Source: Aphrocallistes beatrix (taxonomy: Eukaryota > Porifera > Hexactinellida > Sceptrulophora > Aphrocallistidae). From it: a stretch of 64,000 nt of DNA. Below the pieces are notes generated by a model. It had not been told where the DNA came from. It saw only the letters and a program-made list of their open reading frames with translations, and ran no database searches. The stretch spans positions 10,947,524 to 11,011,523 of the forward strand of contig OY725488.1 of assembly GCA_963281255.1 (NCBI GenBank), given 5' to 3'. Shown here piece after piece: positions 1-64,000 of the stretch. A program made the position numbers and the translations under genes. Every line of letters starts with the position of its first letter. Position 1 is the stretch's first letter.

Positions 1-179
1 GAATATGTCTGTACTTGCTTCCTTTATACATTCACGGTATAATCTAACATAATACACAATCATCTTCACAAAGTAAACATTCCATACTAAGGTTAATACT
101 ATAAAAATACAAATGTATGGAATCATCAGTAACAGTAAGTATATATCATCACCGATCTTTTGAGTATAATGATTAACAT
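1..179 (-). CDS. Subfamily A 7TM receptor, 5' end only (runs off left edge)
   Basis: This is the N-terminal part of a subfamily A receptor read leftwards out of the window. From an ATG at 126-124 the frame is open to base 1 (42 codons) and encodes TM1 plus the start of the first basic loop, ending in LYRECIKEASTDIF. Relatives start about 17 codons further upstream; the matching ATG here is at 179-177, but one base is missing just after it, so that start reads out of frame and soon stops. Either translation begins at the internal Met (126), giving a shortened extracellular N-terminus, or the gene is broken. A TATA-like box (GTATAAATAC, minus strand) lies at 224-233. Confidence 0.75.
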
Positions 180-223
180 TTTTATCAAATGTAAATACTT
201 GTCAGTTGTATGACTTTTATTAT

Positions 224-233
224 GTATTTATAC
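224..233 (-). promoter_or_regulatory. TATA-like box of the left-edge subfamily A gene
   Basis: GTATAAATAC on the minus strand, about 54 nt before the ancestral ATG at 179. The same box, in the same sequence neighbourhood, precedes the other subfamily A genes. Confidence 0.6.
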
Positions 234-2090
234 AAGTACCTGTGATTTTACTTAAGAGAATTGTCATGTTAGCATGACTAATGTGTGTACAACAGGATAT
301 TATGCACCATAACATCCTCATAATCGATTACATCTAGTAATCAAATGAGCTTTCCTATTATGTCATCCGATATACCTTTGAAGAGTTTATCCAACTTAAT
401 AAAAATGCTTTCATTTATTTACTTAAAACAGGCAGGCATCTCAAACTTACAAATTCTCAAATTAATATATTCCTATTTGCATATCAAATGTAAAAAAGGG
501 CTTGCCTAATTTCCTGGACGGGACGGGACCGTCCCCGAAATTAAGCATCTTAACCCGTCCCTGAAATTAGGTACCTTTTCTATTCCGTCCTGGAGATTAG
601 ACATCTTGACTCGTCCCATCCCGGAAATTAGGTACGTGATGGTTCCGTCCCGTCCCGAAAATTAGGCATGACCTGTAGAAAAGGATCAACCATATAAATA
701 TTAATGATGTCGTTCTTTTTATTCTTTTTATCCCCAAAATCCAAATTATAGAATTCGGGCTATTTTATAATTTAAGTACAACCTACTTGTAGATAAAACT
801 CTTTTTCAATTTCTGGGTTAAGTTTCTTTTTTGAATTTTATGTATTAGCACCATATTATCAGATTATACCCGGGAAATACACAATCTAACTATCAGTATG
901 TAATGGTTCAAATTTCTTGATTTATTATCTCCTCATATAGCACAATTCGCCATGCTAAGATGAATAGAATTTTCTTAAGGCAAGTATATCATACATATAT
1001 TTAAGATTAATCATAATGTTATGGAGATAAAGCTTCGAGTGACCTTGAGATGAAGATGCTCAGTCATGATTTCAAATGCATTGATAGTAATGCATAAATG
1101 CTACTGCTGTCTTAGAACTTATGCATTTTGGAGAGTGATATGGCTAAGAACTTAGTGAAAGGAAACATTTTAAGAGCAATTGTTGATAAGAATTTTTAAA
1201 AATATTTGACCATAAATAAGTTAAATTTAAATTGTGAAATAGTAACTACGACATGGAGAAATGATTATTCTCCCAGAATGAATGCAATATATGCAATCAT
1301 ACGACCTTAATTATTGGCAGTATGAACTGAGCTTAAGCTTTTAATTCTAACAAGTTTTGTCTAGCTTTTTAAACAAAAACATACCAAACCTTATAGTAAC
1401 ATCATGGAGACAAATCTCCCATTTTTCTGTGTTGTTGTATATTTGAGTTTTCTTCCAGCACTACATGTATGTACATTGTTACAAAGTACATTGTTGCAAA
1501 AAAAGATCAGAAAATGTAGAGATCAGAGTTGTGATCCTTTTTGAAAATTTGATTTTGATTAGGATCGTCGATCATAATAACAGCTAGGATCGGGATTGCG
1601 ATCTTCTTTTTCGACATCGACTAATGCCCTAAGTTATTGGTAATACTATTGACTATAAATGTTATAAGAAAATAATTTAGGCTAATCCTCATATGACCCC
1701 ACAAATAGCTACTCTGTGTGTGAAACCACGGCTAGCAACTAAGAAAAGGTCACTAAGTACGTAATTCGCTTTATGAAAATCCGTTCATCACAGTTCTTAA
1801 TCACTTAAATACGATAAAGTAGGAATTACAAACGTCACTTCAAACTATTCATGGAATTAATATGCGCTTTATTCAGTTTAAGATTGTCCGTCCCATAGAT
1901 TCGTGCACATATTTAGTCCGTATTTTAGTGAAATACCGCACCTATACCCACCTCCAGCTGTACAAGATATATTCAACACTTATTCCGCACCAAGAAGATA
2001 AAAAAGTGAAGACTACCTGATTATTACACAGATAAACAGACATAAAACAAGATACAGATACTATTCTAAAAGCCTTATTGCTATTATAAG
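234..2090. other. Spacer between two minus-strand subfamily A genes
   Basis: About 1.9 kb with no convincing coding sequence. It holds the palindromic MITE at 498-674. The rest is AT-rich and I see no further recognisable element in it. Confidence 0.6.
498..674. mobile_element. Palindromic MITE, GGGCATGCCTAATTT family, long copy
   Basis: Begins GGGCTTGCCTAATTTC and ends with the inverted form AATTAGGCATGACC. The interior repeats GGGACGGGAC-like blocks and their complements. Flanks GTAAAAAA (490-497) and GTAGAAAA (675-682) differ at one base, consistent with an 8-bp target duplication. Smaller members lie at 35336 and 54279. It has no coding capacity. The 8-bp duplication suggests mobilisation by a hAT-type transposase, which is inference. 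Confidence 0.65.
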
Positions 2091-3215
2091 TTAGGCTATA
2101 AGAAGTGGGTCTGTAAGGCTGGGAGTGAACCTAGTACGGACTTTACCAAAACGATACTTCAAACTTTTCCAGAGTTTTGTGCCGAAAAATCCAATGGTGG
2201 CGAATAGGTACTGCAAACCTATTGAAAGATGTGCAAATAGCATTAGAACTGTGATAATCCATAATCCAATCTTAACACTGAGGTTGAGGGCTTCAATCTG
2301 TTTGTTTGTTGTTAGTAAGGGCTCGAAGAGTGGAGTCCCATAGAGATAATGGAATAGGCAAGGACCGTAGTGAATTGCTATCATGATTAATGAAAACGCT
2401 TTATCGATAATGGCAAATGCAATTAAAGACAGCAAACCTAATCCCATCAAACTCATAATGACAGCGAAATGTTGGTAGCTTTTGATTGATCTCCTGATTA
2501 TCTGAAGACTCACTCCTCTGATCTTATAACCTATACACCTCCATCTTAGAGTCTTGTAGAAAGTCCGAGTTTGCCTAAACCATATGTAGAAATATATTGT
2601 CATGAAGACAGGCTCAGTTAGTTTCTGAAGAATGAAAAGTTGTGGAATTGATCCAGTGATGATCAAAAAAATTCCGATCAAGCATGAAACCAGGAGAAAA
2701 CTACGGACATGCTCAAAGGGTTCACCATAGATATCGTGATATACAACATCTAGATATTTCATCAGACATATCACCAGAGATAGTGAAAATAAAAATCCCG
2801 CTTCTCCTGTAGATGTGGCTACTGCTATAATTGGATTTGCAATAACTCTGAAATTATCGAAGTCGTAAATATCTCCTGTAGTACAATTGTCGATTGTTTG
2901 ATAATTTGTTGGTATTGAAGAGATCCAAAAACCTAATTCACAAGTTAATACTGCAATAGATTCAATGACAGTGATTGCTAACATGAATGCATACTTAACT
3001 ATTTCTGTTTTGTAATGGAGTGCTAGCTCTGATGCGTTACCGAGTATGTCTGTATTCGCTTCCATTATGTACTCACGGTATAATCTAACATAATACACAA
3101 TCATCTTCACAAAGTAAACATCCCAAACGAAAGATAATAAGATGAGAATACATGTGTAGGGAACCATCAGCAAATAAAAATCATTATCAATGTGTTGGAA
3201 ATAAAGTTTGAGCAT
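2091..3215 (-). CDS. Subfamily A 7TM chemoreceptor-like protein (intact)
   Basis: An uninterrupted 374-aa single-exon reading frame. Likely segments: TM1 15-37; basic loop 38-72 with NASELALHYK; TM2 73-95; an outer loop with the glycosylation sequon NCT at 110-112; TM3 126-153 ending CLMKYLD; TM4 170-193; TM5 201-220; a basic loop 221-248 (RRSIKSY); TM6 249-271; a second hydrophobic stretch 275-292 ending in GPCLFHYLYG; a last membrane span 316-346; and a basic tail ending SLTDPLLIA. Positive charges put the loops after TM1, TM3 and TM5 and the tail inside, so the N-terminus is outside, as in GPCRs. The start is the ATG shared with the genes at 5073 and 16137; a TATA-like box is at 3261-3270. 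Ligand and partner are unknown. The sensory role is inferred from family expansion. Confidence 0.85.
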   Translation of the reverse strand: MLKLYFQHIDNDFYLLMVPYTCILILLSFVWDVYFVKMIVYYVRLYREYIMEANTDILGNASELALHYKTEIVKYAFMLAITVIESIAVLTCELGFWISSIPTNYQTIDNCTTGDIYDFDNFRVIANPIIAVATSTGEAGFLFSLSLVICLMKYLDVVYHDIYGEPFEHVRSFLLVSCLIGIFLIITGSIPQLFILQKLTEPVFMTIYFYIWFRQTRTFYKTLRWRCIGYKIRGVSLQIIRRSIKSYQHFAVIMSLMGLGLLSLIAFAIIDKAFSLIMIAIHYGPCLFHYLYGTPLFEPLLTTNKQIEALNLSVKIGLWIITVLMLFAHLSIGLQYLFATIGFFGTKLWKSLKYRFGKVRTRFTPSLTDPLLIA

Positions 3216-5072: not shown

Positions 5073-6197
5073 TTAAGTTATAAGAAGTGGATCTGTAAGG
5101 CTAGGAGTGAATCGAGTACGAACTTTTCCAAAACGATACTTCAAACTTTTCCAGAGTTTTGAACCGAAAAACCCTAAGCTGGCGAATAGGTACTGCATAC
5201 CTATTGAAAAGTGAGCAACTAGCAATATACTTGTTCCGATCCATGAAAAAATCTCAATACTGAGGTTGAGAGCCTCAATCTGCTTGTTTGTTGTTAGTAA
5301 GGGCTTGTAGAGAGGAGTCCCATAGAGATGATGAAATAGACAAGGGCCATAGCGGATTGCAATCGTGGTCAAGAAAAGGGCTTTATCGATGATGACAAAT
5401 AAAATCATAAACAGAAAACCTATTCCCATCATACTCATAATGACAGTGAAATGTTGGCAGTTTTCAACTGATCTCCTGAGTATCTGACGACTCACACCTC
5501 TAATCTTATATTCTACACACCTCCACCTTAGTGTCTTGTAGAAAGTCCGAGTCTGTCTAACCCAGGCATAGAAATAGATAAGAGTGATGACAGGCATAAA
5601 TATTTTTTGTAAAATGAGAAGTTGCGGGATTGATCCAGTAATAATCCAAAAAATTCCGATCAAACATGAAAACAGGAGAAAACGACGCACAAACTTAAAG
5701 GGTTTACCATGGATATCATGATATATAACGTCTAAATATTTCATCAAGCATATTACTAGAGTATCAGAAATTAGAAACCCCGCTTGTCCTGTTGATGTGG
5801 CTACTCCTGCGATTGGATCTGCCATAACTCTAAAATCCTCAAAATTATAGATACTTCCTGTCGTACAATTATATACTTTTTGATAGTCTGATGATATTAA
5901 AGATTTCCAAAAACCCAATTCAAATGTTAGTACTGCAATAAATTCAATGGTATTGATTGCTAACATAAATGCATGCTTAACTATTTCAGTTTTATAATGA
6001 AGAGCTAACTCTGATGCATTACCGAGTATGTCTGTATTTGCTTCTTTTATACACTCACGGTATAATCTAACATAATACATTATCATCTTCACAAAGTAAA
6101 CATCCCAAACTAAAGATAATACGAAGAGAAGACAAATGTAAGGGAACACCAGTAAGTATACATCATGACTAATGTATTTAAAATAATTATTGAGCAT
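5073..6197 (-). CDS. Subfamily A 7TM chemoreceptor-like protein (intact)
   Basis: A 374-aa uninterrupted frame, colinear with the gene at 2091-3215 without gaps. All family landmarks are present: YFVKMIMYYVRLYREC after TM1, the NCT sequon in the outer loop after TM2, CLMKYLDVIYHDIHGKPF after TM3, the ILRRSVEN basic loop, YGPCLFHHLYGTPLYKPLL, and tail FTPSLTDPLLIT. The outer loop (KSLISSDYQKVYNC) and TM7 differ most from the neighbours, while inner loops and tail are nearly constant, as expected if outer faces contact varying ligands and inner faces a common partner (inference). A TATA-like box lies at 6248-6257. Product location: plasma membrane, inferred. Confidence 0.85.
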   Translation of the reverse strand: MLNNYFKYISHDVYLLVFPYICLLFVLSLVWDVYFVKMIMYYVRLYRECIKEANTDILGNASELALHYKTEIVKHAFMLAINTIEFIAVLTFELGFWKSLISSDYQKVYNCTTGSIYNFEDFRVMADPIAGVATSTGQAGFLISDTLVICLMKYLDVIYHDIHGKPFKFVRRFLLFSCLIGIFWIITGSIPQLLILQKIFMPVITLIYFYAWVRQTRTFYKTLRWRCVEYKIRGVSRQILRRSVENCQHFTVIMSMMGIGFLFMILFVIIDKALFLTTIAIRYGPCLFHHLYGTPLYKPLLTTNKQIEALNLSIEIFSWIGTSILLVAHFSIGMQYLFASLGFFGSKLWKSLKYRFGKVRTRFTPSLTDPLLIT

Positions 6198-9358: not shown

Positions 9359-10497
9359 ATGAATTCCAGTACAAGTAACTTCCATATCGGATTTGATCGG
9401 GACGTGACTTACTACCATGTGATTTATGTATATTCACTGCATTATCAGTGTTATGGAATGTCTACTTCGTAAAGAGGATACTGTACTTCATTAGATTATA
9501 TCGTGAGTCAATGGAAGAAGCTAAAACTGACATATTTGGTAACTCTTCAGAGCTAGCAGTCCATTATAAGGTCGAGATAGTCAAATACGCGTTTCTGTTA
9601 GCGATTAATATTATTGAGATAAGTGCAATGGTGATGTATGGATTAGGCAGCCACTCCATGACACGACAAAATAAAAGTACTCGTATAATTAGCAATTGCA
9701 CCATTGGAAATACCTTTAACATTGAATTGCATGATCTCATTGGAAACCCAATAGCAAAAATATTTCTTTCGTTCGCTCAAGCAGACCTTATAATCTCCAT
9801 GGCACCTGTAATCTACCTCATGAAGTATCTGGATGTTACCTACCATAACATCAATGGTAAACCGTTTCGTTTCATCAAATCTTTTCTTCCGATTTCATCT
9901 TTGATTGGTTTATCTCTAATCGTAACTGGATCTGTCCCGCAATTGTTCATTTTGCATGAGTTCTATGAGCCTATAGTAGAATTTGTCTATTTCTGTTTGT
10001 GGTTTAGACAAACTCGAACCTTCTATAGAACACTGAAGTGGAGGTCGGTAGAGTTTCAGGTTAGAGGTAGAAGCACTCAGATGGTAAGGAGATCAATTAA
10101 AGGCTACCGTCAGTTTGCATTCATTATGAGTTTAATGGGAATAGGGATTGTGTGTATAATTTTGACCGAGTTTTTAGAAACATATTTTTTCTTGTTTCTC
10201 ACTTTGGTTCGCTACGGTCCTTGTCTATTCCATCATCTCTACAATACTCCTCTCTATCAACCATTATTCAACACACAGCTCCAACTGGAAGCTCTACACA
10301 CCTCTAATACTGTTTTTTCAAAGATTGAAACAATTTTAAGTATAATCTCTCCTCTATCGATAGGGTTACAATACGTTTTCGTCACGATTATATTTTTTAG
10401 TGAGAGACTATTGAGAAAACAGAATTACCGTTTTGGAAGAGTGCGCACAAGGTTCACGCCTAATCTTACTAACCCACTTCTCATTAATTCCAACTAA
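9359..10497 (+). pseudogene. Subfamily B receptor with a 4-nt deletion in TM1
   Basis: The expected start ATG at 9359 opens MNSSTSNFHIGFDRDVTYYH, matching the N-terminus of the gene at 63574. About 20 codons later, near 9432, four bases are missing relative to that paralogue, and the frame ends at a TAA near 9470. The rest of the receptor (from LWNVYFVKRI at 9451 to NPLLINSN at 10497) is intact in another frame, but has no upstream ATG in that frame before TM1; the first in-frame ATG lies after TM1. The body keeps all landmarks: NCTIGN outer loop, CLMKYLDVTYHNI, VRRSIKGYRQF, YGPCLFHHLYNTPLYQPLF. The loss looks recent, because no other defect is seen. A non-canonical start or an assembly error could restore it. 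Confidence 0.75.
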
Positions 10498-11799: not shown

Positions 11800-12876
11800 T
11801 TAAGTTATGAGAAGTGGATCCGTAAGGCTGGGAGTGAACCTTGTACGGACTTTACCGAAACGATACTTCAAACTTTTCCAGAGTTTAGCGCCGAAAAATC
11901 CAATGCTGGCGAATAGATATGGTAAACCCACAGATAGGTGAGCAACTAGCAATAGAACTGTTCCGGTCCATGATACAATTTCAATACTGAGGTTCAGCAG
12001 AGCTTGAATCCGTTGATTTGATGCTAGTATAGGCTTGTAAAGAGGAGTCCCATAGAGATGATGGAATAGACAGGGACCGTAGTGAATGGCTATTGTTATT
12101 ATGAAAAAGCCTTTATCAATAATGATAAATAAAATTAAGCACAGCGTACCTATTCCAATCATACTCATAATGACAGTGAAGTGGCGGCAGTTACTGATTG
12201 ATCTCCTGACTATCTGGTGACTCATACCTCTAATCTTATATTCTGCACACCTCCACCTTAGTGTCTTATAGAAAGTCCGAGTTTGCTTGACCCAGATATA
12301 GAAATAGATCATCGTGATGACAGGCTCAAATATTTCTTGAAGAATGAAAAGGTGCGACATTGATCCAGTGATGATCAGAAACATTCCGACAAAACATGAG
12401 ACCAGGAGAAAACGACGCACATACATAAAGGGATTACCATGGATATCATGATATATAACATCTAGATATTTCATCAAGCATGTCACTAGAGCTAAGGAGA
12501 ACAGAAATCCTGCTTCTCCAAAGGAATTGGGTACTGCTGCGAATGGATTAGCAGTAACTCTAAAATCATATAAATTGTCAATATTCGTTTCAGTACAATT
12601 GTCGAATTTTTCATAATTTGTTATTAATGAGAAGCCAAAACCTGACTCCAATGTTAGTACGGCAATAAATTCAATGGCATTGATAGCTAACATAAATGCA
12701 TACTTAACTATTTCTGTTTTGTAATGGAGTGCTAGCTCTGATGCGTTACCGAGTATGTCTGTATTCGCTTCCTTCATACATTTACGGTATAATCTAACAT
12801 AATACACAATCATCTTCACAAAGTAAACATCCCAAACTAAAGATAATACGAGGAGAATACATGTGTACGGAACCAT
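11800..12876 (-). CDS. Subfamily A 7TM receptor with lost ancestral start
   Basis: The open frame of 358 aa begins MVPYTCILLVLSLVWDVYF, that is, directly at TM1. The ancestral ATG is still visible at 12936-12934 (MPEHYFQSIVNDI) but is followed in frame by two adjacent TAG codons, so the first ~20 residues are cut off. From TM1 to the tail SLTDPLLIT everything is intact, with an extra residue (ALLNLS) before the last span and NCTE in the outer loop. Initiation at the internal Met would leave almost no extracellular N-terminus; the left-edge gene shows the same situation. The TATA-like box (13002-13011) is conserved. It is either functional with a short N-terminus or an early pseudogene. Confidence 0.7.
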   Translation of the reverse strand: MVPYTCILLVLSLVWDVYFVKMIVYYVRLYRKCMKEANTDILGNASELALHYKTEIVKYAFMLAINAIEFIAVLTLESGFGFSLITNYEKFDNCTETNIDNLYDFRVTANPFAAVPNSFGEAGFLFSLALVTCLMKYLDVIYHDIHGNPFMYVRRFLLVSCFVGMFLIITGSMSHLFILQEIFEPVITMIYFYIWVKQTRTFYKTLRWRCAEYKIRGMSHQIVRRSISNCRHFTVIMSMIGIGTLCLILFIIIDKGFFIITIAIHYGPCLFHHLYGTPLYKPILASNQRIQALLNLSIEIVSWTGTVLLLVAHLSVGLPYLFASIGFFGAKLWKSLKYRFGKVRTRFTPSLTDPLLIT

Positions 12877-16136: not shown

Positions 16137-17267
16137 TTAGGTTATAATAAGCGGATCTGTAAGGCTAGGAGTGAACCTAGTACGGACTTTCCCAAAACGA
16201 TACTTTAACCTTTTCCAGAGTTTCGAGCCGAAAAATCCAATGCTGACGAATATGTACTGCAAAACTGCTGAAAGATAAGAAACTAGCATTATAGCTGTTT
16301 CGATCTGTAATACAATCTCAATACTTAAGTTCAGAGCTTTAATCTGTTCGTTTGTTGTGAGTAAAGGCTTGTAGAGTGGAGTCCCATAGAGATGATGGAA
16401 TATACAGGGACCGCAATGAATTGCAACTGTGATTAGGAAAAAAACATTATCGATAATGGCATATAAAATTAAGGACAGCAAACCAACTCCCATTATACTC
16501 ATAAAGACAGCGAAATGGTGGTAGCTTTTGATTGATCTCTTGACTATCTGACTACTCAGACCTCTAATCTTATATTCTACACACTTCCACCTTAGGGTGG
16601 TATAGAAAGTTCGAGTTTGCTTAACCCAGATATAGAAATATATCATCATGATGACAGGCCCAAACAGTTCTTGTAAAATGTAAAGTTGCGGAATTGATCC
16701 AGTGATGATCAAAGAAATTCCGACCAAAAATGAAACCAGGAGAAAACGACGAACATATTTAAAAGGTTTACTGTGGATATCATGATATATAACATCTAGA
16801 TACTCCATCAAGCATATCACTAAAGATATAGAAAATAAGAATCCTGCTGTTCCAAAGGACGTGGCTGCTGATGCGATTGGATTTGCAATAACTCTATAAA
16901 CATATAAATTGTATACATTTCCTGTAGTACAATTGTCGAATTTTTCATAATTTAATGGTATTAAAGAGATGCCAAAACCTAGTTCAAATGCTAGTATTGC
17001 AATAAATTCAATGATATTGATTGCTAACATAAATGCATGCTTAACTATTTCTGTTTTGTGGTGGAGTGCTTGCTCTGATGCGTTACCGAGTATGTCTGTA
17101 TTTGCTTCCTTTATACACTCACGGTATAATTTAACATAATACATTATCATCTTCACAAAGTAAACATCCCAAACTAAAGATAATCCGAGGAATATACATA
17201 TGTAAGGAATCATTAGTAGGCTCAAGTATACATGATTACCAATGTTCTGGAAATGAAGATCGCGCAT
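16137..17267 (-). CDS. Subfamily A 7TM chemoreceptor-like protein (intact)
   Basis: A 376-aa single open frame, two residues longer than its neighbours in the N-terminus (NHVYLSLLMIPYIC). Outer loop with NCTTGNVYN after TM2, TM3 ending CLMEYLDVIYHDI (Glu replaces the usual Lys), TM4 ending GSIPQLYILQ, basic loop QIVKRSIKSYHH, HCGPCIFHHLYGTPLYKPLL, tail FTPSLTDPLIIT. The body is closest to the truncated receptor at 35547 (shared YHHFAVFMS, DNVFF and SIEIVLQIETA/SIEIVLRIETA). The start is the family ATG; a TATA-like box is at 17304-17313. Confidence 0.85.
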   Translation of the reverse strand: MRDLHFQNIGNHVYLSLLMIPYICIFLGLSLVWDVYFVKMIMYYVKLYRECIKEANTDILGNASEQALHHKTEIVKHAFMLAINIIEFIAILAFELGFGISLIPLNYEKFDNCTTGNVYNLYVYRVIANPIASAATSFGTAGFLFSISLVICLMEYLDVIYHDIHSKPFKYVRRFLLVSFLVGISLIITGSIPQLYILQELFGPVIMMIYFYIWVKQTRTFYTTLRWKCVEYKIRGLSSQIVKRSIKSYHHFAVFMSIMGVGLLSLILYAIIDNVFFLITVAIHCGPCIFHHLYGTPLYKPLLTTNEQIKALNLSIEIVLQIETAIMLVSYLSAVLQYIFVSIGFFGSKLWKRLKYRFGKVRTRFTPSLTDPLIIT

Positions 17268-20235: not shown

Positions 20236-21357
20236 ATGTTCGGTCATTATTTCCAAGCCAGAAACAATGATGTCTACTATTTCATGTTCCTCTGCTTATG
20301 TTTATTGATTGTATTATCACTGCTATGGAATGTCTACTTTATCAAGATGATTGTGCATTATATTCGTTTATACCATGAGTGTTTGGAAGAAGCTGAATCA
20401 GACTTTGTAGGTAACTCAGAACTAGCGCTGCATTATAAAGTTGAAATAGTGAAGTATCTATTTTTGCTAGCGATTAATGTTACTGAATACATGGCATTGA
20501 TAGCATACGAGATAAGCGTCATATCCTACTCGGTAGCTGCCAGTTTTGATATATTTGGTAACTGCACTGAAGGAGACATTCATAACTCTGAATTCAATAT
20601 CATCATTTTGAATCCGATTGCAGCAGCTTTTTCATCTATTGGATATGTTGGATTACAATTTTCTTTGTCGCTTGTGATATGCCTTATGAGATATCTTGAC
20701 GTCATGTACCATGATATTAATGGAAAACCAATGCTGAGTATGAGATATGTTATTCTAGTGTCAGGTTGCATTGGAGTTATTTTGATTGTCACTGGATTCA
20801 TTCCTCAATTGTTTCTAGTTCACGTTTTATTTGTACCGATAATCAACTTGGGTTATTTGTGTTTATGGGCTAGACAAACTCGCATCTTCTACAAGACATT
20901 GAGATGGAGGTCTGTGGAGTTCAAGGTCAGAGGCATGAGTTGCCAGATAGTCAGGAGGTCAGTGAAGAACTGTCGTTATTTTGCTATCATGATTTGTGTG
21001 GGGGGAATCGGGTTATTATGCATATTTGTGTGTGAATTTCTTGAGAAATATTATTTCTTAGTCGCCATAGGAGTCCGTTACGGTCCCTGCATATTCCAAC
21101 GCCTCTACGGGACTGCTTACTATGAGCCGTTACTGACTACAAAGCAACAGATTGATGCTCTGAACTTCAGTAATGAGATCGTATCAGGTATCGCGACATC
21201 CCTGGTTGCAGTTATAATAATTACCGTTGGCTCTCCTTACTTACTCGCCACGACTGCATTTTTCGGTGGAAATCTTTGGAAAAAGTTGAAGTATCGCTAT
21301 GGTAGAGTCCGTACTAGGTTCACTCCTAGCCTTATTGATCCTCTTCTCATAGCATAA
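20236..21357 (+). CDS. Subfamily D 7TM chemoreceptor-like protein, copy 1 (intact)
   Basis: 373 aa from the ATG at 20236 (MFGHYFQARNNDVYYF); the two codons before it lack an ATG. Landmarks: LLWNVYFIKMIVHY after TM1, GNSELALHYKVEIVKY (one residue shorter than in A), NCTEGDIHN sequon loop, CLMRYLDVMYHDINGKP after TM3, TGFIPQLFL, CQIVRRSVKNCRYF, YGPCIFQRLYGTAYYEPLL, GSPYLLATTAFFGG, tail RYGRVRTRFTPSLIDPLLIA. It is the only subfamily here with Tyr for Phe in the RFG tail motif and Ala in GTAYY. A second copy 16.7 kb downstream (36946) has about 20 amino-acid differences. Confidence 0.88.
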   Translation: MFGHYFQARNNDVYYFMFLCLCLLIVLSLLWNVYFIKMIVHYIRLYHECLEEAESDFVGNSELALHYKVEIVKYLFLLAINVTEYMALIAYEISVISYSVAASFDIFGNCTEGDIHNSEFNIIILNPIAAAFSSIGYVGLQFSLSLVICLMRYLDVMYHDINGKPMLSMRYVILVSGCIGVILIVTGFIPQLFLVHVLFVPIINLGYLCLWARQTRIFYKTLRWRSVEFKVRGMSCQIVRRSVKNCRYFAIMICVGGIGLLCIFVCEFLEKYYFLVAIGVRYGPCIFQRLYGTAYYEPLLTTKQQIDALNFSNEIVSGIATSLVAVIIITVGSPYLLATTAFFGGNLWKKLKYRYGRVRTRFTPSLIDPLLIA

Positions 21358-23145: not shown

Positions 23146-23398
23146 TAAGAAACTAATAATTACGTAAATATGAGAGGCAACTGCATATTGTAATCCAAAA
23201 CAGGATAATTTGACACGATTTACACGCACTGCATGACTATTAAGTTTCAATTTATTTCATGAAATATTTAAGAATTTGGAAAGCAGTATTTGCTTACATG
23301 TGCGAAAAAATTCAAGCCTTAGGTCTCAGGGAGAACTAGACCTATAAACAGAAGAATCATCTAGAACAGTTCATCTGATAAAGTCCCATTTAATTAAA

Positions 23399-41671: not shown

Positions 41672-41718
41672 AAGAGCCGTCTACAATGTTTCATCAGATA
41701 AAGTTTTCTTTAATAAAA

Positions 41719-44415: not shown

Positions 44416-45537
44416 ATGAACAGATATCAGTTTCAGAGCAAAATTAATATTGATTTAGAATATTTCCTTTTCTTCTACTCATTCTTGTTTGCTGGGATAA
44501 CAACACTTTGGAATATCCACTTTGCGAAGAGGATTCAGTACTTCGTTACTAAGTACAGAAAGTACGTAGAGTCAGCTAAGAATGACATACTCAATAACTA
44601 CACAGAACTTGCACTACACTGCAAAGTTGAAATTGTTAAGTATGCATTCCTAGTAACAATAAATATCACCGAAGTCAGTTCACTCATTATATTTATATTC
44701 GGGCTAGGACAAACCCATGTGAACTTAAATAATACCACAAGTAACACTTGCCATAGCCGGATATACAACACCGAATTACAAGTAATAAGTGATACTCCAA
44801 TGAAAGCAGTGTTCATCAGTGTTGGACATGTCGGATTTTTAATGTCATTAGCACTTGTGACATGTCTAATGAAATACCTTGATGCTACTTATCATAACAT
44901 CAATGAACAACCTGTCAAGTTTATTAAAATCTTTATGACTGTTTCGTGTATTGCTGGAGTTCTACTTTTTGTGTCAGGATCCATTCACCAATCATTTATT
45001 CTTGAAAGGCTAGCATATCCTATCATAATGCTGACATATACCTGCATTTGGATCAAAATAGCTCGTAATTTTCACAAAACATTGAAGTGGCGATCTATAG
45101 AGTTTAAGGTTAGAGGTAGGAACAGTCAGATAGTGAGAAGAGCAATCAGAAGCAGCAATCATTTTGCTATTGTAATGAGTTTGCTTGGAATTGGGGCAAT
45201 ATGCTTAACTTTGACTTCAATTGTTGATGATTATTTTTTCATTTTCACTTTGTTTGCTTACTGTCCAAAGATCGTCGCACAACTCTATGGAACCCCACAC
45301 TACACGCCTCTCTTCACAACAAAACTTCAAATCGATGCTTTAGTCCTTTCCAGTAAGATCACCTCAGAAATCTGTATTGTCCTGTCTGTGATTGCTTACC
45401 TAGCCATGACATCCCAATACTTGCTAGTTACATTCGTATTCTTCGGTAGAATGATCGTGATAAAGTTAAAATATCGATTTGGAAGAATAAAAACGAGGTT
45501 TACTCCTAGCCTTACTAACCCACTTCTCATCTCTTAA
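44416..45537 (+). CDS. Subfamily C 7TM chemoreceptor-like protein (intact)
   Basis: 373 aa, MNRYQFQSKINIDLEYF at the N-terminus. Stops lie directly upstream in frame, which fixes the start. ICL1 has NNYTELALHCKVEIVKY (Cys replaces the usual Tyr). Outer loop NNTTSNTC carries overlapping sequons. CLMKYLDATYHNINEQPVKF after TM3, SGSIHQSFIL after TM4, SQIVRRAIRSSNHF, YCPKIVAQLYGTPHYTPLF, tail KTRFTPSLTNPLLIS. It shares the N-terminus with 49916 and TM1/ICL1 with 47169 (QYFVTKYRKYVESAK), a patchwork typical of exchange between neighbours. Confidence 0.88.
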   Translation: MNRYQFQSKINIDLEYFLFFYSFLFAGITTLWNIHFAKRIQYFVTKYRKYVESAKNDILNNYTELALHCKVEIVKYAFLVTINITEVSSLIIFIFGLGQTHVNLNNTTSNTCHSRIYNTELQVISDTPMKAVFISVGHVGFLMSLALVTCLMKYLDATYHNINEQPVKFIKIFMTVSCIAGVLLFVSGSIHQSFILERLAYPIIMLTYTCIWIKIARNFHKTLKWRSIEFKVRGRNSQIVRRAIRSSNHFAIVMSLLGIGAICLTLTSIVDDYFFIFTLFAYCPKIVAQLYGTPHYTPLFTTKLQIDALVLSSKITSEICIVLSVIAYLAMTSQYLLVTFVFFGRMIVIKLKYRFGRIKTRFTPSLTNPLLIS

Positions 45538-47168: not shown

Positions 47169-48263
47169 ATGATTCTCTACTTAGAATACTTTCTTTTCTT
47201 CTACTCATTCTTGTTTGTTGGGTTGGTAATGCTGTGGAATATCCACTTTGCGAAGAGGATTCAGTACTTCGTTACTAAGTACAGAAAGTACGTAGAGTCG
47301 GCAAAGAATGACATACTCAATAACTACACAGAACTAGCACTACACTGCAAAGTTGAGATTGTTAAGTATGCATTCCTCGTTGTGATAAACATTACCGAAA
47401 TCAGTTCACTCATTATATATATATTCGGCCTAGAACGAACTCATGTAAATCCACCTAATGCCACAAGTAACACTTGCCTTAGTAAGATAGACATCGCTGA
47501 ACTACATGTTATCTTTGGATCTCCAATGAAAGCAGTGTTCATCAGTGTTGGGCATGTGGGCTTTTTAATGTCATTAGCACTTGTGATATGTCTAATGAAA
47601 TACCTTGATACCACTTATCATAACATCAATGTGCAACCTGTCAAGTTTATTAAAATCTTTATGACTGTTTCGTGCATTGCTGGAGTTCTACTTTTTGTAT
47701 CAGGATCCATTCACCAATCATTTATTCTTGAAAGGCTAGCATATCCTATCATATTGGCGATCTATACCTGCATTTGGATGAAAATAGCTCGTAAATTCCA
47801 CAAAACACTGAAGTGGCAATCTGTAGAGTTTAAAGTTAGAGGTTGGAGCAATCAGATAGTGAGAAGAGCAATCAAAAGCAGCAAACATTTCGCTATTATA
47901 ATGTGTCAGATGGGAATTGGGATAATTTGCTTAACCATGGGTTCAATTGTCGATGGTTACTTGTCTGTATTTTCAATGTTTGCTTACTGCCCAAAGATCG
48001 TCACACAACTCTATGGAACTCTTCACTACACGCCTCTCTTCACGACAAAACCACAAATCGATGCTTTAGCACTTTCCTTCGAGATTATCTCAGAAATCTG
48101 TGTGGTTCTGTCTGTAATTGCTTTCCTAGCAATTTCATCTCAATACTTGTTTGCTTCATTTTTCTTTTTCGGTGGAATGGTCGCAAGAAAGTTGAAGTAT
48201 CGATTTGGAAGAGTTAAAACGAGGTTTACTCCTAGCCTTACTAACCCACTTCTCATCTCCTAA
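47169..48263 (+). CDS. Subfamily C 7TM receptor with a shifted start
   Basis: 364 aa starting MILYLEYFLFFYSFLFVGL. The position of the family ATG now reads ATAAACAGATATC (ATG to ATA), and that ancestral frame would stop within ten codons. A new ATG at 47169 restores the receptor frame, shortening the N-terminus by nine residues but leaving TM1 whole. The rest is intact: NYTELALHCKVEIVKY, NATSNTC loop, CLMKYLDTTYHNINVQPVKF, WSNQIVRRAIKSSKHF, YCPKIVTQLYGTLHYTPLF, tail GRVKTRFTPSLTNPLLIS. An AATAAA signal lies at 48330-48335, 67 bp after the stop. It is likely functional. Confidence 0.83.
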   Translation: MILYLEYFLFFYSFLFVGLVMLWNIHFAKRIQYFVTKYRKYVESAKNDILNNYTELALHCKVEIVKYAFLVVINITEISSLIIYIFGLERTHVNPPNATSNTCLSKIDIAELHVIFGSPMKAVFISVGHVGFLMSLALVICLMKYLDTTYHNINVQPVKFIKIFMTVSCIAGVLLFVSGSIHQSFILERLAYPIILAIYTCIWMKIARKFHKTLKWQSVEFKVRGWSNQIVRRAIKSSKHFAIIMCQMGIGIICLTMGSIVDGYLSVFSMFAYCPKIVTQLYGTLHYTPLFTTKPQIDALALSFEIISEICVVLSVIAFLAISSQYLFASFFFFGGMVARKLKYRFGRVKTRFTPSLTNPLLIS

Positions 48264-49915: not shown

Positions 49916-51037
49916 ATGAACAGATATCAGTTTCAGAGCAAAATTAATATTGATTTAGAATACTTTCTTTTCTTCTACTCATTCTTGTTTGCTGGGATAA
50001 CAATACTTTGGGATATCTACTTTGCGAAGAGGATTCTTTACTTCGTTAATTTGTACAGAAAGTACGTAGATTCAGCAAAGAATGACATACTCAATAACTA
50101 CACAGAGCTAGCACTAAAATGTAAAGTTGAAATCGTTAAGTATTCATTCCTCGTTGTAATTAGTATCATCGAAATCAGTTCACTCATAATATATATATCC
50201 GGCTTAGGACTAACTCATGTAAATCCACTCAATGCCACAAGCAACACTTGCCTTGGCAAGATAAGCAACGTTGAATTGCATGTCGTCATTGGTACTCCAA
50301 TAGAAGCAGTGCTCATCAGTGTTGGGCATGTGGGCTTTTTAATGTCATTGACACTTGTGATATGTCTAATGAAATACCTTGATACCACTTATCATAACAT
50401 CAATGAGCAACCTGTCAAGTTTATTAAAATCTTTATGACTGTTTCATGTATTGCTGGAGTTCTACTTTTTGTGTCAGGATCCATTCACCAATCATTTGCT
50501 CTTGAAAGGCTAGCATATCCTATCATATTGCTGATATATACCTTCATTTGGATGAAAATAGCTCGTAATTTCCACAAAACATTGAAGTGGCAATCTGTAG
50601 AGTTTAAGGTTAGAGGTAGGAGCAGTCAGTTAGTGAGAAGAGCAATCAAAAGCAGCAAACATTTTGCTATTATAATGTGTTCGTTGGGATTTGGGGCAAT
50701 TTCCTTAACTTTGGCTTCAATTGTTGATAATTATTTTTTCATATTCACTATGTTTGCTCACTGTCCAAATCTAGTCGCACAACTCTATGGAGCTCCTCAC
50801 TACAGGCCTCTCTTCACGACAAAATCACAAATCGATGCATTAACGCTTTCCAGTAAGATTTCCTCAGAAATCTATGTATTCCTGTCTGTGATTGCTTATC
50901 TAGCCATTACATCTCAATATCTGCTAGTTACATTCGCATTTTTCGGTGGAATTGTCGTGAGAAAGTTAAAATATCGATTTGGAAGAATTAGAACGAGGTT
51001 TAGTCCTAGCCTTACTAACCCACTTCTCTTCTCCTAA
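49916..51037 (+). CDS. Subfamily C 7TM chemoreceptor-like protein (intact)
   Basis: 373 aa; MNRYQFQSKINIDLEYF as in the gene at 44416, but TM1 (GITILWDIYFAKRILYFVNLYRKY) is like 25045 and the outer loop (NATSNTCLGKISNVELHV) like 41719: a mosaic of its neighbours. Otherwise standard: CLMKYLDTTYHNINEQPVKF, SGSIHQSFAL, SQLVRRAIKSSKHF, a divergent HCPNLVAQLYGAPHYRPLF segment, and a tail with two rare changes (TRFSPSLTNPLLFS). The changed tail is the most deviant among intact copies, possibly a sign of relaxed constraint. Confidence 0.87.
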   Translation: MNRYQFQSKINIDLEYFLFFYSFLFAGITILWDIYFAKRILYFVNLYRKYVDSAKNDILNNYTELALKCKVEIVKYSFLVVISIIEISSLIIYISGLGLTHVNPLNATSNTCLGKISNVELHVVIGTPIEAVLISVGHVGFLMSLTLVICLMKYLDTTYHNINEQPVKFIKIFMTVSCIAGVLLFVSGSIHQSFALERLAYPIILLIYTFIWMKIARNFHKTLKWQSVEFKVRGRSSQLVRRAIKSSKHFAIIMCSLGFGAISLTLASIVDNYFFIFTMFAHCPNLVAQLYGAPHYRPLFTTKSQIDALTLSSKISSEIYVFLSVIAYLAITSQYLLVTFAFFGGIVVRKLKYRFGRIRTRFSPSLTNPLLFS

Positions 51038-55260: not shown

Positions 55261-56388
55261 ATGATTTCCAGCATCAATTTTCATAGCAAACTATATCAGG
55301 ATTCAACCTACTTCTTCGTGGCCTATATAAGCATATCCATTGCGTTATCAGTGTTATGGAATATCTATTTCGTCAAGAGGATACTGTATTTCATTAGATT
55401 GTATCGTGAGTCAATGGAAGAAGCTAAAACTGACATATTCGATAACTCATTAGAGCTAGCAGTCCATTATAAGATTGAGATAGTCAAATACGCGTTTATG
55501 TTAGCGATTAATATCATTGAGGTGAGTGCAATGGTGATGTATGGATTAGGCAACTCTTTAGCACGACGAAATAACAGCATAACAAACAATTGTATCGGTA
55601 AAGAGAATTATGACCTAGAAATTTATCTCATTGGAAATCCAGTTAGATTTTTATTTGTGTTTCTTGCTAAAATCGGGTTATTATTCTCACTCTCAGTTGT
55701 GATCTGCCTTATGAAGTATCTGGATGTTACATACCATAACATCAATGGTAAACCGTTTCGTTTCATCAAATCTTTTCTTCTGATTTCATCTTTGATTGGT
55801 TTATCTCTGATCATAACTGGATCTGTCCCGCAATTGTTCATTTTGCATGAGTTCTATGAACCTATAGTAGAATTTGTATATCTCTGTTTGTGGATTCGAC
55901 AAACTCGAACCTTCTATAGAACACTGAAGTGGAGGTCGGTAGAGTTTCAGGTTAGAGGTAGAAGCATCCAGATGGTCAGGAGATCAATTAAAAACTACCG
56001 TCAATTCGCATTCATCATGAGTTTAATGGGAATAGGGATTGTGTGTATAATCTTGAGTGTGTTTTTAGAAACATATTTTTTCTTGTTTCTCACTTTGGTT
56101 CGCTACGGTCCTTGCCTATTCCATTATCTCTACAATACTCCTCTCTACCAACCATTATTCAACACACAGCTTCAACTGAAAACTCTACACATTTCTAATA
56201 CTATTATTTTAAAGCTTGAGATAACTTTGGGCATAATCGCATCCTTTATGATAGGATTACAGTACTTTTTGGTTACAATCGTATTTTTCGGAGGGAAGCT
56301 ATTGAGGAGAATGAATTACCGTTTTGGAAGAGTGCGTACAAGGTTCACTCCTAATCTTACCAACCCACTCCTCATTAATTCCCACTAA
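55261..56388 (+). CDS. Subfamily B 7TM chemoreceptor-like protein (intact)
   Basis: 375 aa from ATG 55261 (MISSINFHSKLYQDSTYFF); five in-frame codons upstream lack an ATG. TM1 ends LWNIYFVKRILYFIRLYRES; loop NSLELAVHYKIEIVKY; the outer loop has NNSITNNCIGKENYD, with one sequon before its Cys; CLMKYLDVTYHNINGKPFRF; TGSVPQLFIL; IQMVRRSIKNYRQF; YGPCLFHYLYNTPLYQPLF; tail GRVRTRFTPNLTNPLLINSH. Subfamily B is marked by NTP for GTP, PNL for PSL and the extra NSH/NSN end. TM4-loop 3 is near-identical to the broken gene at 9359, and the outer loop to the gene at 63574. Confidence 0.88.
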   Translation: MISSINFHSKLYQDSTYFFVAYISISIALSVLWNIYFVKRILYFIRLYRESMEEAKTDIFDNSLELAVHYKIEIVKYAFMLAINIIEVSAMVMYGLGNSLARRNNSITNNCIGKENYDLEIYLIGNPVRFLFVFLAKIGLLFSLSVVICLMKYLDVTYHNINGKPFRFIKSFLLISSLIGLSLIITGSVPQLFILHEFYEPIVEFVYLCLWIRQTRTFYRTLKWRSVEFQVRGRSIQMVRRSIKNYRQFAFIMSLMGIGIVCIILSVFLETYFFLFLTLVRYGPCLFHYLYNTPLYQPLFNTQLQLKTLHISNTIILKLEITLGIIASFMIGLQYFLVTIVFFGGKLLRRMNYRFGRVRTRFTPNLTNPLLINSH

Positions 56389-57730: not shown

Positions 57731-57873
57731 CATGCTAATTTAGCCATTAAAATTAGAAATATAATAATATTCAGGGATTTACCATTGAGGGGATGTCACT
57801 TCTCAAATTCGATGGAAATTTTCGAGAAGGTTTGGTAAGTATGATAAATACTTAAATTTAATAGAATTTGTTC

Positions 57874-58284
57874 AAGAGATCAATTAAAAACTACCGTCAG
57901 TTTGCATTCATCATGAGTTTAATGGGAATAGGGATTATGTGTATAATTTTGACCGAGTTTTTAGAAACATATTTCTTCCTACTTGTCACTGTATTTCGCT
58001 ACGGTCCTTGTCTATTCCATCATCTCTACAACACTCCTTTCTATCAACCACTTTTCAACACACAACTTCAAATGGAAGCTCTACACACCTCCAATACTGT
58101 GATTTCGAGGATTGAGATAATTTTGGTTATAATCTCGTCCATTTCAATAGGATTACAGTACATTTTGGTTGCAATCATATTTTTCGGAGAGAAGCTATTG
58201 AGGAGAATGAATTACCGTTTTGGAAGAGTGCGTACAAGGTTCACTCCTAATCTTACCAACCCACTCCTCATTAATTCCAACTAA
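57874..58284 (+). pseudogene. Subfamily B receptor, 3' fragment
   Basis: Starts abruptly in the third inner loop (RSIKNYRQFAFIMSLMG) and is open through TM6, YGPCLFHHLYNTPFYQPLF and the last span to NPLLINSN. TM1-TM5 and a promoter are missing, and the sequence before 57874 is unrelated. No damage in the remaining codons. The fragment resembles 55261 and 9359 about equally. Confidence 0.85.
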
Positions 58285-59554: not shown

Positions 59555-60685
59555 ATGATTTCCAATATTAACTTCAATAGCAAACTATATTGGGATGTAA
59601 ACTATTTCCTCGTGGCTTTCATAGGCATATTCATTGCGCTGTCAGTGTTATGGGATGTCTACTTCGTAAAGAGGATACTATACTTCATTAGATTGTATCG
59701 TGAGTCAATGGAAGAAGCTAAAAATGACATTTTCGGTAACTCTTCAGAGCTAGCAGTCCATTATAAAGTTGAGATAGTCAAATACGTGTTTCTGTTAGCG
59801 ATCAATATCATTGAAGTGAGTGCAGTGGTGATGTATGGATTATTCATCTCTTTGCCACTACAAAATAATACCACAATAACCAATTGCACCATTGAGGATA
59901 TTCATAACAGGGAATTAAATGATCTTGTTGAAAATCCAGTCAAATTATTTTTTCTATGTCTTGCTAAAATCGGGATGCTATTCTCCCTTGCACTTGTAAT
60001 CTGCCTCATGAAGTTCCTGGATGTCACACAACATAATATCAATGGTAAACCGTTTCAGTTTATCAATTCTTTTCTTTTAATCACATTTTTGATTGGTATA
60101 GTCCTAATTCTACCTGGATCTGTCCCTCAATTGTTCATCTTAGTAAAAGTGTATGAGCCTATAATACAATTTATTTATTTCTGTTTGTGGCTTAAACAAG
60201 CTCGCACCTTCTATAGAACACTGAAGTGGAGATCTCTAGAGTTTCAGATTAGAGGTAGAAGCACTCAGATGGTAAGGAGATCCATTAAAAGCTACTGTCA
60301 ATTCGCATTCATCATGAGTTTATTGGGAATAGGGATTGTGTGTATAATTTTGGCTGTGTTTTTAGAAACATATTTTTTCTTGTTTCTCATTGTGATTCGC
60401 AACGGTCCTTGCCTATTCCATCATCTTTACAATACTCCTCTCTATCAACCATTTTTCAACACACAACATCAACTGGAAGTTTTGCACACCTCTAATATTG
60501 TGATTTCAAGCATTGTAGTAATTTTAGCTATAATTGCTTATTTTACGATAGGATTTCAGTACTTTTTGGTTACAATAATATTTTTCGGAGAGAAGCTATT
60601 GAAGCGGATGAATTATCGTTTTGGAAGAGTGCGCACAAGGTTCACTCCTAATCTTACCAATCCTCTTCTCATTGATTCACATTAA
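59555..60685 (+). CDS. Subfamily B 7TM chemoreceptor-like protein (intact)
   Basis: 376 aa from ATG 59555 (MISNINFNSKLYWDVNYF). Loop NSSELAVHYKVEIVKY, outer loop NNTTITNCTIEDIHNRE with two sequons, CLMKFLDVTQHNINGKPF (Phe and Gln replace the usual Tyr residues), PGSVPQLFIL (Pro replaces Thr, as in 31582), TQMVRRSIKSYCQF, RNGPCLFHHLYNTPLYQPFF, tail GRVRTRFTPNLTNPLLIDSH. It shares TM4-TM5 and PQLFIL features with the frameshifted gene at 31582 rather than with 55261. A 26-nt copy of its TM3 codons occurs at 61884. Confidence 0.88.
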   Translation: MISNINFNSKLYWDVNYFLVAFIGIFIALSVLWDVYFVKRILYFIRLYRESMEEAKNDIFGNSSELAVHYKVEIVKYVFLLAINIIEVSAVVMYGLFISLPLQNNTTITNCTIEDIHNRELNDLVENPVKLFFLCLAKIGMLFSLALVICLMKFLDVTQHNINGKPFQFINSFLLITFLIGIVLILPGSVPQLFILVKVYEPIIQFIYFCLWLKQARTFYRTLKWRSLEFQIRGRSTQMVRRSIKSYCQFAFIMSLLGIGIVCIILAVFLETYFFLFLIVIRNGPCLFHHLYNTPLYQPFFNTQHQLEVLHTSNIVISSIVVILAIIAYFTIGFQYFLVTIIFFGEKLLKRMNYRFGRVRTRFTPNLTNPLLIDSH

Positions 60686-61909: not shown

Positions 61910-63501
61910 ACCTTATTTATAATACTGGAGTATGTACATTTATTGAGATTATCTCATATAGATTATATGACATAACTGATATATTCCGAAACAAAGGTTC
62001 AATAATTTTGTTTTTATGACATACATATGTAGACTGTGGTGGTTTGATTGCACAAGGAGTAATTATAAATTTTCCTGTTTTATGAATCAGTGATCTAACC
62101 ATTTGATATGTTGAAAGTCCTGAAGTTGCATCATATTACTCCTAGATATCAATGAAAATAATATGTAATTACATCGACCATATTTTAAATTTTCTCCTGA
62201 AAAGGAATAGTCAAAAGTTGTAACTTATTACCATAATATATGTCCCTGTACCAAAGTGCTTTGTAACCCGATGATTAATAGCTACCACTGCTTAGTAATG
62301 TTATATAATATATTTATAAAAATGTGATTTATGTATATATATTTTTGTTATAATGCATTTCTTTAATAGTAAACATTAAATGCATGCAATGTTGTATTTC
62401 TTACACATACGTAATACAACATATTCTCAATATCCATTTGATATAATTTTCCTTCATAAAGAAGACCAATGTATTTATATCATAGGTGTACAGAAGTGAC
62501 TAAATGACGATTACATTGATAAAGATGACAATTTTAAGGTCGCATTTGTATGTTGACGGATTAGTTAGTTAAGTTCTGATTAACAGTTGCTTCTATACTC
62601 CTTAAGATGGATTAATGAGCTTTCACCCAAAAATTACTTAAATTATTGCATTATTAATTAAGGAAATCTGGATTATGATCCTAAATCAATCACATCCTCT
62701 TTAAACAAATTGCACTTAAATGACCACTAAAAATCGCTAACTTTGTTGCAAACATAACCTACTCCACAATTACATGATGACTAATCTAATTTTGACAAGG
62801 TAGATATGATACTTTGACATCAAACTTATATATGCTGGTACTACATTCCCAAGCTCTATGCTGCGTGTTTAATGATTTAAGGCAGCTCATTTATTAGTTC
62901 AATCATTTCAACCGCATTCCTAGTTCAAAATCCGCAAGTTACTGTGAAGCCTTATATATAGTAGGATATGTAACCATAATATTCTGATATTTCAAATTTA
63001 TCATCGTTAAATCTTCATTGAATTGTGTCATTTAACTTTTCGAAACAAATTCATTAATCAGAACGATTTTTTCGATCATTTATTACAGAACAGGTTTGGA
63101 TTAGCGAGGGTGTACTGTACCAGTATTGTAGGAGGTACTACGCTACTTGACTACGTGGATCCATGCTTAAGCTAGTAAATATGTCTAGAACAATTCAGTA
63201 AGTAGATAGTTAATCAATTTTAATAACATTTTCCTACGACTACATTCGTGTTGGTTCATAAACATCAAACAAAATATTACTTCAGCCATAATCTAACTTT
63301 CTCCAAATAAAGGAATAGTCAATGAAAGTTGCAACTTGTTATCATAATCTATGTTCTAGTATCAGAGTGCTTCTTATTCTAAAGATAATAGCTACCACAG
63401 ACTGTTTAGTAACGTTTTGTAATATAATAATTCGCGGTGAAGTGATTCATAAGAATTTTGTAATGATTAGACAAACTACCAATATGCTATGTTTCCTAGA
63501 A

Positions 63502-63510
63502 GTATATAAG
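63502..63510 (+). promoter_or_regulatory. TATA box of the gene at 63574
   Basis: GTATATAAG, 72 nt before the ATG; the leader is 5 nt shorter than in the other B genes. Confidence 0.65.
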
Positions 63511-63573
63511 CTAGCATGAATCACTTTCCAACAGATACATATTAATCTACCAAAGCAAGTGACCATTTTCGAA

Positions 63574-64000
63574 ATGATTTTCAGTAACAACTTCCATATC
63601 AAATTTGATCAAGATGTAACTTACTTCTACGTGACATATCTATGCCTATTCACTGGATTATCAGTGTTATGGGATGTCTACTTCATAAAGAGGATGCTGT
63701 ACTTCATTAGATTATATCGTGAGTCAATCGAAAAAGCTAAAACTGACATACTCGGTAACTCCTCAGAGCTAGCAGTCCATTATAAGGTTGAGATAGTCAA
63801 ATACGCGTTTCTGCTAACGATTAATATCATTGAGGTGAGTGCAATGGTGATGTTTGGGTTAGGCAACTCTTTAGCACGACGAAATAACAGCATAACAAAC
63901 AATTGCATCGGTAAAGAGAATTATAACAAAGAAATTGATCTCATTGGAAATCCAGTTAGATTTTTATTTTTGTCTTTTGCTAAAATCGGGTTATTATTCT
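63574..64000 (+). CDS. Subfamily B 7TM receptor, 5' part (runs off right edge)
   Basis: 142 codons from ATG 63574 (MIFSNNFHIKFDQDVTYFY) through TM1, the first loop (ILGNSSELAVHYKVEIVKY), TM2, the outer loop NNSITNNCIGKENYNKE and into TM3 (AKIGLLF). It is open to the window edge. The N-terminus is closest to the broken gene at 9359, while TM2 and the outer loop are nearly identical to 55261, suggesting exchange between B genes. The rest of the gene is outside the window. Confidence 0.85.
   Translation, partial: MIFSNNFHIKFDQDVTYFYVTYLCLFTGLSVLWDVYFIKRMLYFIRLYRESIEKAKTDILGNSSELAVHYKVEIVKYAFLLTINIIEVSAMVMFGLGNSLARRNNSITNNCIGKENYNKEIDLIGNPVRFLFLSFAKIGLLF

Follow-up and report, generated by a model that had tools for sequence, protein, structure and literature searches.

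A tandem gene cluster in a glass sponge belongs to a large, apparently undescribed family of seven-transmembrane proteins, probably chemoreceptors

A dense array of single-exon genes in the window

The stretch of DNA analyzed here, called the window throughout, spans 64,000 nucleotides of the glass sponge Aphrocallistes beatrix (G000:C1:10947524-11011523) and was studied together with the whole 100.5 Mb assembly of 28 contigs. The window is filled by genes and gene remnants of a single family of predicted seven-transmembrane (7TM) proteins. Its open reading frames (ORFs) were listed from ATG to stop in the standard code at a length of at least 150 amino acids (aa), multi-exon genes with shorter exons being outside the scope of such a list, and all 17 were assigned to this family. 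Sixteen were matched by a family hidden Markov model (HMM) with a best E value of 3e-199, and the 17th (35547-36212, 221 aa) was assigned by tblastn; the HMM scan covered ORFs of at least 250 aa, and three of the 16 window ORFs appear in it under the identical loci L001, L003 and L005. When 76 family ORFs were compared with the window by tblastn, 24 merged stretches were obtained, one of them holding two genes, giving a total of 25 genes or fragments. Of these, 11 are complete and 3 near-complete, 9 are broken or fragmentary, and the window edges cut the other 2. The complete proteins are each encoded by a single exon and are 364-385 aa long, and mean column identity among the 13 proteins first aligned was 62%. 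These counts bear out a preliminary description of this DNA, which had reported a dense array of one single-exon family with about ten intact genes; the motifs that it named are real, and its figure of more than ten broken genes was slightly high. The genes and fragments are as follows.

1..183, minus strand: 5' part of a member, cut at the left window edge (tblastn)
2091..3215, minus strand: intact single-exon member, 374 aa, GPC type (ORF, tblastn)
5073..6197, minus strand: intact single-exon member, 374 aa, GPC type (ORF, tblastn)
9511..10497, plus strand: near-intact member, encoding 328 aa when read from its first ATG; homology starts upstream at 9397, with no ATG in the open frame (ORF, tblastn)
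11800..12876, minus strand: near-intact member, encoding 358 aa when read from an inner ATG; the upstream N-terminal part holds stop codons (ORF, tblastn)
16137..17267, minus strand: intact single-exon member, 376 aa, GPC type (ORF, tblastn)
20236..21357, plus strand: intact single-exon member, 373 aa, GPC type (ORF, tblastn)
23351..23890, plus strand: broken family fragment or fragments (tblastn)
25012..26169, plus strand: intact single-exon member, 385 aa, CPK type (ORF, tblastn)
31582..32708, plus strand: broken member, a 253 aa ORF with the remainder in a different frame (ORF, tblastn)
34039..34359, plus strand: family fragment (tblastn)
35547..36212, minus strand: 3' half of a member, 221 aa ORF (ORF, tblastn)
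36946..38049, plus strand: near-intact member, 367 aa, last residues missing; 97% DNA identity with the 20236 gene and its upstream flank until 38044 (ORF, DNA comparison)
38009..38842, plus strand: 5'-truncated CPK-type member, 277 aa ORF, fused to the 36946..38049 gene at about 38045-38047 (ORF, DNA comparison)
39660..39941, minus strand: weak family fragment (tblastn)
40431..40798, plus strand: family fragment (tblastn, DNA comparison)
40895..41023, minus strand: weak family fragment (tblastn)
41686..42843, plus strand: intact single-exon member, 385 aa, CPK type (ORF, tblastn)
44416..45537, plus strand: intact single-exon member, 373 aa, CPK type (ORF, tblastn)
47169..48263, plus strand: intact single-exon member, 364 aa, CPK type (ORF, tblastn)
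49916..51037, plus strand: intact single-exon member, 373 aa, CPN type, a variant of CPK (ORF, tblastn)
55261..56388, plus strand: intact single-exon member, 375 aa, GPC type (ORF, tblastn)
57757..58281, plus strand: C-terminal fragment of a member (tblastn)
59555..60685, plus strand: intact single-exon member, 376 aa, the reference for residue numbers (ORF)
63556..64000, plus strand: 5' part of a member, cut at the right window edge; the full gene, L004, is intact and encodes 375 aa (tblastn, HMM)

No tRNA and no match at an Rfam gathering threshold was found within the 64 kb. Tandem arrays occupy 51671-52317 (period 141 bases) and 7262-7537 (period 140 bases), and by eye the units of the two look related on opposite strands. 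A 483-base tandem repeat of two copies at 18403-19375 shows a 75% match to its own reverse complement.

The family comprises two branches across the genome

Members resembling those of the window make up branch 1. When a window protein was used as the query, all 109 candidates scored were matches, on C1 and on many further contigs; this search scored 109 of 443 candidates, and a second one with a member from contig C13 scored 107 of 452. Branch 2 was reached through a single-exon ORF that adjoins a branch-1 member and is its distant relative, and the corresponding search gave 144 matches (144 of 208 candidates scored) with sub-branches among them. Non-overlapping loci with an open frame numbered at least 120 in branch 1 and 106 in branch 2, that is, at least 226, the branch-1 figure being a lower bound because only part of the candidates had been scored. 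These loci were counted by hand as frames of at least 340 aa that were stop-free in the row used, with start codons unchecked, and they take in two window genes classed above as near-complete as well as four loci that were stop-free in one search and held a stop in another (C13:4134370, C11:1000954, C16:1476276 and C20:246623). Another such locus of the same branch was present within 15 kb at 89 of the 120 branch-1 loci and at 65 of the 106 branch-2 loci. Two loci, C4:4694354-4695454 and C5:5478-6578 (on a contig of 33.7 kb), had identical scores and are possibly one gene assembled twice. A 361 aa ORF at L025:4222-5307, beside family members on C13, presumably resembles a mariner-type transposase.

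Three alignments were used for comparison: A2, with 66 branch-1 rows (10 of the 76 family ORFs were dropped as truncated or short); A3, with 19 of 20 branch-2 frames; and A4, with 48 rows, of which 31 came from the 66 of branch 1 and 17 from the 19 of branch 2. Profile-profile comparison of the 66 with the 19 sequences gave a probability of 96.9% (E 1.4e-10) over 278 columns, which dropped to 0.1-0.2% when either profile was reversed as a control. In a tree of the 85 rows branch 2 formed one side of a branch with 100/100 support, although several rows, L068 above all, sat on long branches and were of unsure placement. The C-tail, which the preliminary description had called invariant, is a real motif but does not hold throughout: RFGx[VI]x[TI]RF[ST]P occurs in 35 of the 66 branch-1 members, and the branch-2 tail is different.

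Seven segments with an outward-facing N-terminus are predicted

Average hydropathy resolved the same plan of seven hydrophobic segments in each branch, in agreement with the seven-transmembrane claim of the preliminary description, and from these profiles a predicted 7TM plan is well supported. The number of lysine and arginine residues per sequence was 27.8 in the odd (inner) loops versus 5.0 in the even (outer) loops of the 66 branch-1 sequences, and 28.0 versus 6.6 in the 19 branch-2 sequences. Since basic residues are concentrated in loops 1, 3, 5 and 7, the N-terminus is predicted to lie outside the cell and the C-terminus inside (N-out/C-in), which by hydropathy and charge bias would be the orientation of G protein-coupled receptors (GPCRs) and the opposite of that of insect gustatory and odorant receptors (GRs and ORs). 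According to the segment calls, inner loop 1 is long, outer loop 2 has about 4 residues, outer loops 1 and 3 are long, and the N-terminus is short, with no large ectodomain. An N-x-S/T sequon was present in outer loop 1 (loop 2) in all 66 branch-1 and 12 of the 19 branch-2 sequences, and the sole column invariant in the 48 mixed members was a glutamate in helix 2.

A cysteine in outer loop 1 went hand in hand with one in outer loop 3: of the 48 members, 39 had both, 6 had neither and 3 had one only (Fisher P 1.5e-5). This co-occurrence is a good hint of a putative disulfide between the two loops; because the sequences are related, it is a hint and not proof. In the CPK and CPN genes of the window the cysteine of loop 3 sits two columns earlier and that of loop 1 one column later, and this joint shift was given no weight as support for the bond, as the CPN-type members L016 and L049 lack the loop-1 shift.

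Copies arose by DNA duplication and are under constraint

Duplicated genes of the window have flanking sequence in common, over as many as 864 bases before the gene and 543 after it, and the copies therefore arose through DNA duplication and not through retroposition. The local tandem expansion proposed in the preliminary description is borne out by clustered copies with common flanks. At about 38045 (window 38009-38049) the copy with 97% identity to the 20236 gene runs directly into a CPK-type remnant of a different subgroup, and this junction is likely the scar of an unequal recombination. Among 207 close pairs with dS between 0.05 and 0.8, the median dN/dS was 0.48 (range 0.21 to 1.00) and no pair exceeded 1; 7 of the 76 family ORFs, being shorter than 340 aa, were left out of this set. 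The close pairs are constrained and under purifying selection. By region, with borders set by hand from the hydropathy segments, dN/dS was lowest in inner loop 2 (0.27) and in the C-tail and outer loop 3 (both 0.31), while TM6 (0.59) and outer loop 1 (0.58) had the highest values. Mean column entropy was 1.34 bits in the inner versus 2.05 bits in the outer loops (P 1e-8, with columns taken as independent).

Searches of catalogs and for known receptor motifs

A Pfam-A scan of 48 members gave nothing better than E 0.0022, with scores versus cut-offs given for the first member only (below cut-off), and no 7TM family was among the 25 of 28 weakly matching families listed; neither 7tm_7 nor 7tm_6 and none of the nematode serpentine chemoreceptor families appeared among these 25. 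In separate Pfam scans of nine window proteins and of two consensus sequences, all matches fell below cut-off and none was to a 7TM family. NCBIfam returned scattered weak matches only (best E 0.0064). Profile searches of the PDB found no GPCR: alignment A1 gave one chance match to a calcium pump (E 0.16), and A3 and A4 gave nothing. A genome search with PF08395 was empty, as it was in every control genome.

Motifs were sought anywhere in the protein in the 66 branch-1 and 19 branch-2 sequences. TYhhhhhQF and a CWxP-like motif were absent from all of them, NPxxY was present in 6 of 66 and 0 of 19, and [DE]R[YFW] in 3 branch-1 and 4 branch-2 sequences; none of DRY, NPxxY and TYhhhhhQF, the patterns that the preliminary description had not seen, is conserved. 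That description had named a strong HMM match to a described receptor family as the outcome that would speak against it; such a match was sought in Pfam-A and none was seen among the families listed. No account of such a family was found in the open-license papers searched, supplements excluded; the Oopsacas minuta genome paper, which states that G proteins and GPCRs were surveyed, has a signaling section that gives G-alpha numbers and is silent on such a family (PMC10280926). The family may therefore be called undescribed as regards Pfam-A, NCBIfam, the PDB and the literature searched, which is narrower than a claim for all sequence databases. Judged by its sequences, it is a new family of putative 7TM receptors.

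Signaling genes elsewhere in the genome

A six-frame search without introns, which may miss multi-exon genes, gave one match to PF00001 at E 0.001 or better in the whole genome. This match, L012:1345-3201 (G000:C10:4157164-4158087), is a single-exon class A receptor of 618 aa with a DRF motif (99.5 bits) and also lies just above the nematode Srx and Srw cut-offs. Class C receptors (PF00003) gave 36 matches, 31 of them over cut-off, and clusters of class C genes, mostly long single open frames, were seen at G000:C14:1109791-1186899, C9:429299-444882 and C20:76066-155402. G-alpha matches covered 54 stretches of the genome, of which many are single exons or score below cut-off; O. minuta is reported to have 8 G-alpha genes (PMC10280926). 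For the demosponge Amphimedon, 126 Rhodopsin-family genes in sponge-specific clusters are reported (PMC4302439). The near-loss of class A receptors beside a very large unrelated 7TM family makes a striking contrast in the one genome measured.

The mitochondrial contig

Contig C28 (17,996 bases) is the mitochondrial genome; by ORF reading its recognized genes lie on one strand and atp9 is present, and the gene order includes atp6-cox3-nad2-nad5-nad1-cob. The cox3 gene is split over two frames (G000:C28:8806-9588), and the ORF read as nad6 is open. In the stretches counted, TGA outnumbered TGG by 72 to 2, and AGA codons stand at serine positions of cox1 stretches that we take to be conserved. 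An earlier account reports, for hexactinellids or for A. vastus, that AGR is translated as serine, that atp9 is retained and TGG is rare, that cox3 carries a +1 frameshift and that the block from atp6 to cob is shared, together with a frameshifted nad6 in A. vastus (PMC2267718). In Oopsacas atp9 is present and there is no frameshift (PMC4520895). The mitochondrial contig therefore identifies the source as a glass sponge, and its open nad6 makes A. vastus itself an improbable one.

Discussion

There is good support for a single large family that has a 7TM plan and a predicted GPCR-like orientation, lies outside the catalogs tested and includes the genes of the window. We consider it probable that the window covers part of a tandem cluster evolving by birth and death, and that the family is a large, apparently undescribed and lineage-specific one of GPCR-like chemoreceptors in glass sponges. 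By analogy with other large tandem 7TM families, and given an outside that varies and an inside that is conserved, a G protein-coupled chemoreceptor function is the most likely one. Each single-exon gene would then yield a surface receptor of seven helices with its N-terminus outside, in which the long, variable and presumably glycosylated outer loop 1 would be tied to outer loop 3 by a disulfide. Outer loop 1 and the variable helices 6 and 7 would form a ligand pocket differing among paralogues, the conserved basic inner loops and the C-tail would couple to a common partner, most likely heterotrimeric G proteins, and the array as a whole would be a chemoreceptor repertoire with which cues from food, microbes or conspecifics are detected.

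Several points weigh against a GPCR-like chemoreceptor family. Homology to any GPCR class was not detected in the Pfam, PDB profile and class A profile searches, and there is no conservation of DRY, NPxxY or CWxP. Homology at the sequence level is a defining feature of a GPCR class, and as the tests for it came out negative the family is not filed under any such class. A sequon also occurs in predicted inner loop 1 in 39 of the 66 branch-1 members, and sequons by themselves therefore leave the orientation undecided; it is the charge bias that carries that argument. Outer loop 3 is an exception to the contrast between inside and outside, being among the more conserved regions by dN/dS and by entropy; of the variable outer loops reported in the preliminary description, loop 1 is indeed variable and loop 3 comparatively conserved. 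Immunity or self-recognition might also be served by a large, variable 7TM family. Single exons by themselves mean little, since they are common in glass sponges: the A. vastus genome paper gives 12,409 single-exon transcripts versus 19,578 genes (PMC10282587).

An expansion of class A (rhodopsin-family) GPCRs that has diverged past recognition, comparable to the Rhodopsin clusters of Amphimedon, is a less probable but serious alternative. It would account for the predicted orientation, which is the same, and the Amphimedon set (AqRho) is a precedent: it is likewise a large sponge-specific 7TM expansion of the same predicted orientation, but a Pfam search recognized AqRho as rhodopsin family, whereas the family described here has no Pfam 7TM match among those listed (PMC4302439). 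No class A family was among the 25 of 28 Pfam families listed for the 48 members, nor was one found for the two consensus sequences. A class A profile built from L012 and five PDB receptors, whose split halves find each other at 99.9%, matched alignments A2, A3 and A4 with probabilities of 0.7, 0.3 and 0.2% versus 0.5, 0.3 and 0.2% when reversed; with this six-row profile rhodopsin ancestry was undetectable, and such ancestry stays a rival. The loop plan argues against class A as well, since the long inner loop 1, the outer loop 2 of about 4 residues and the long outer loops 1 and 3 differ from the class A norm. On the other side, the invariant helix 2 glutamate and, where helix 3 ends on the inner side, a basic and aromatic stretch are reminiscent of what we take to be class A positions. 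Slightly less probable again is that the proteins are immune, microbe-recognition or allorecognition receptors and not sensors of the outside world; birth-and-death dynamics and a fast outer loop 1 suit either role, and the lack of any pair with dN/dS above 1 and the short N-terminus speak against the immune role without excluding it.

A repertoire of ligand-gated ion channels of the insect GR and OR kind is improbable. These families (7tm_7, 7tm_6) are large tandem 7TM chemosensory expansions that proceed by birth and death, with proteins of about 370-400 aa and seven segments, and the family described here resembles them in length, segment number and tandem turnover. It differs in its opposite predicted orientation, to judge by charge bias only, in the lack of TYhhhhhQF in all 85 sequences and in the absence of 7tm_7 and 7tm_6 from the families listed; the empty PF08395 search points the same way, though it was empty in control genomes too. 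An expansion of spider-mite gustatory receptors was considered and dropped, given the glass-sponge host and the N-out charge bias. A family of mobile or viral elements is very improbable. High copy number over most contigs and a weak integrase match (rve_2, E 0.027) in one member would fit it, but the window copies lie in tandem with common flanking DNA, close pairs are under purifying selection, and branch 1, the branch scanned, had no relative in the viral_contigs or genome_contigs collections, on which the idea that branch 1 came from viruses or bacteria was rejected.

Other receptor arrays offer further comparisons. Vertebrate odorant, V1R and TAS2R receptors have a single coding exon and are clustered, often in hundreds of copies, many of them broken; in contrast to the present family they are GPCRs with Pfam models, none of which is among the families listed here. 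The class C GPCRs of the same genome are also 7TM proteins in local clusters with largely long single open frames, but Pfam recognizes them and their open frames reach 885 aa. On scaffold 022 of A. vastus, three tandem clusters are described, with a function predictable for only one and AIG1 domains in the largest (PMC10282587); by that description they are similar in being tandem glass-sponge clusters with many single-exon genes.

The chemoreceptor reading can be taken further, to a GPCR-like superfamily with no detectable relation to the known classes and held by an outer loop 1-3 bond. In glass sponges, with the rhodopsin family nearly gone, it would have become the chief set of chemoreceptors and so an independent origin of a large 'sense of smell' in nerveless animals. 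We put this forward tentatively, as a possibility somewhat short of even; in class A the corresponding bond runs from helix 3 to outer loop 2. Sponges have no neurons, and glass sponges conduct electrical signals through their syncytium. If the chemoreceptor reading is true, more than 200 open-frame receptor-like genes outside the catalogs searched would be a concrete candidate for chemical sensing in glass sponges, and receptor counts based on homology could fall far short of the true set of sensory genes in early animal lineages. The genes would add a 7TM family to those available for comparing structures, and they may be what a nerveless animal uses to sense chemicals.

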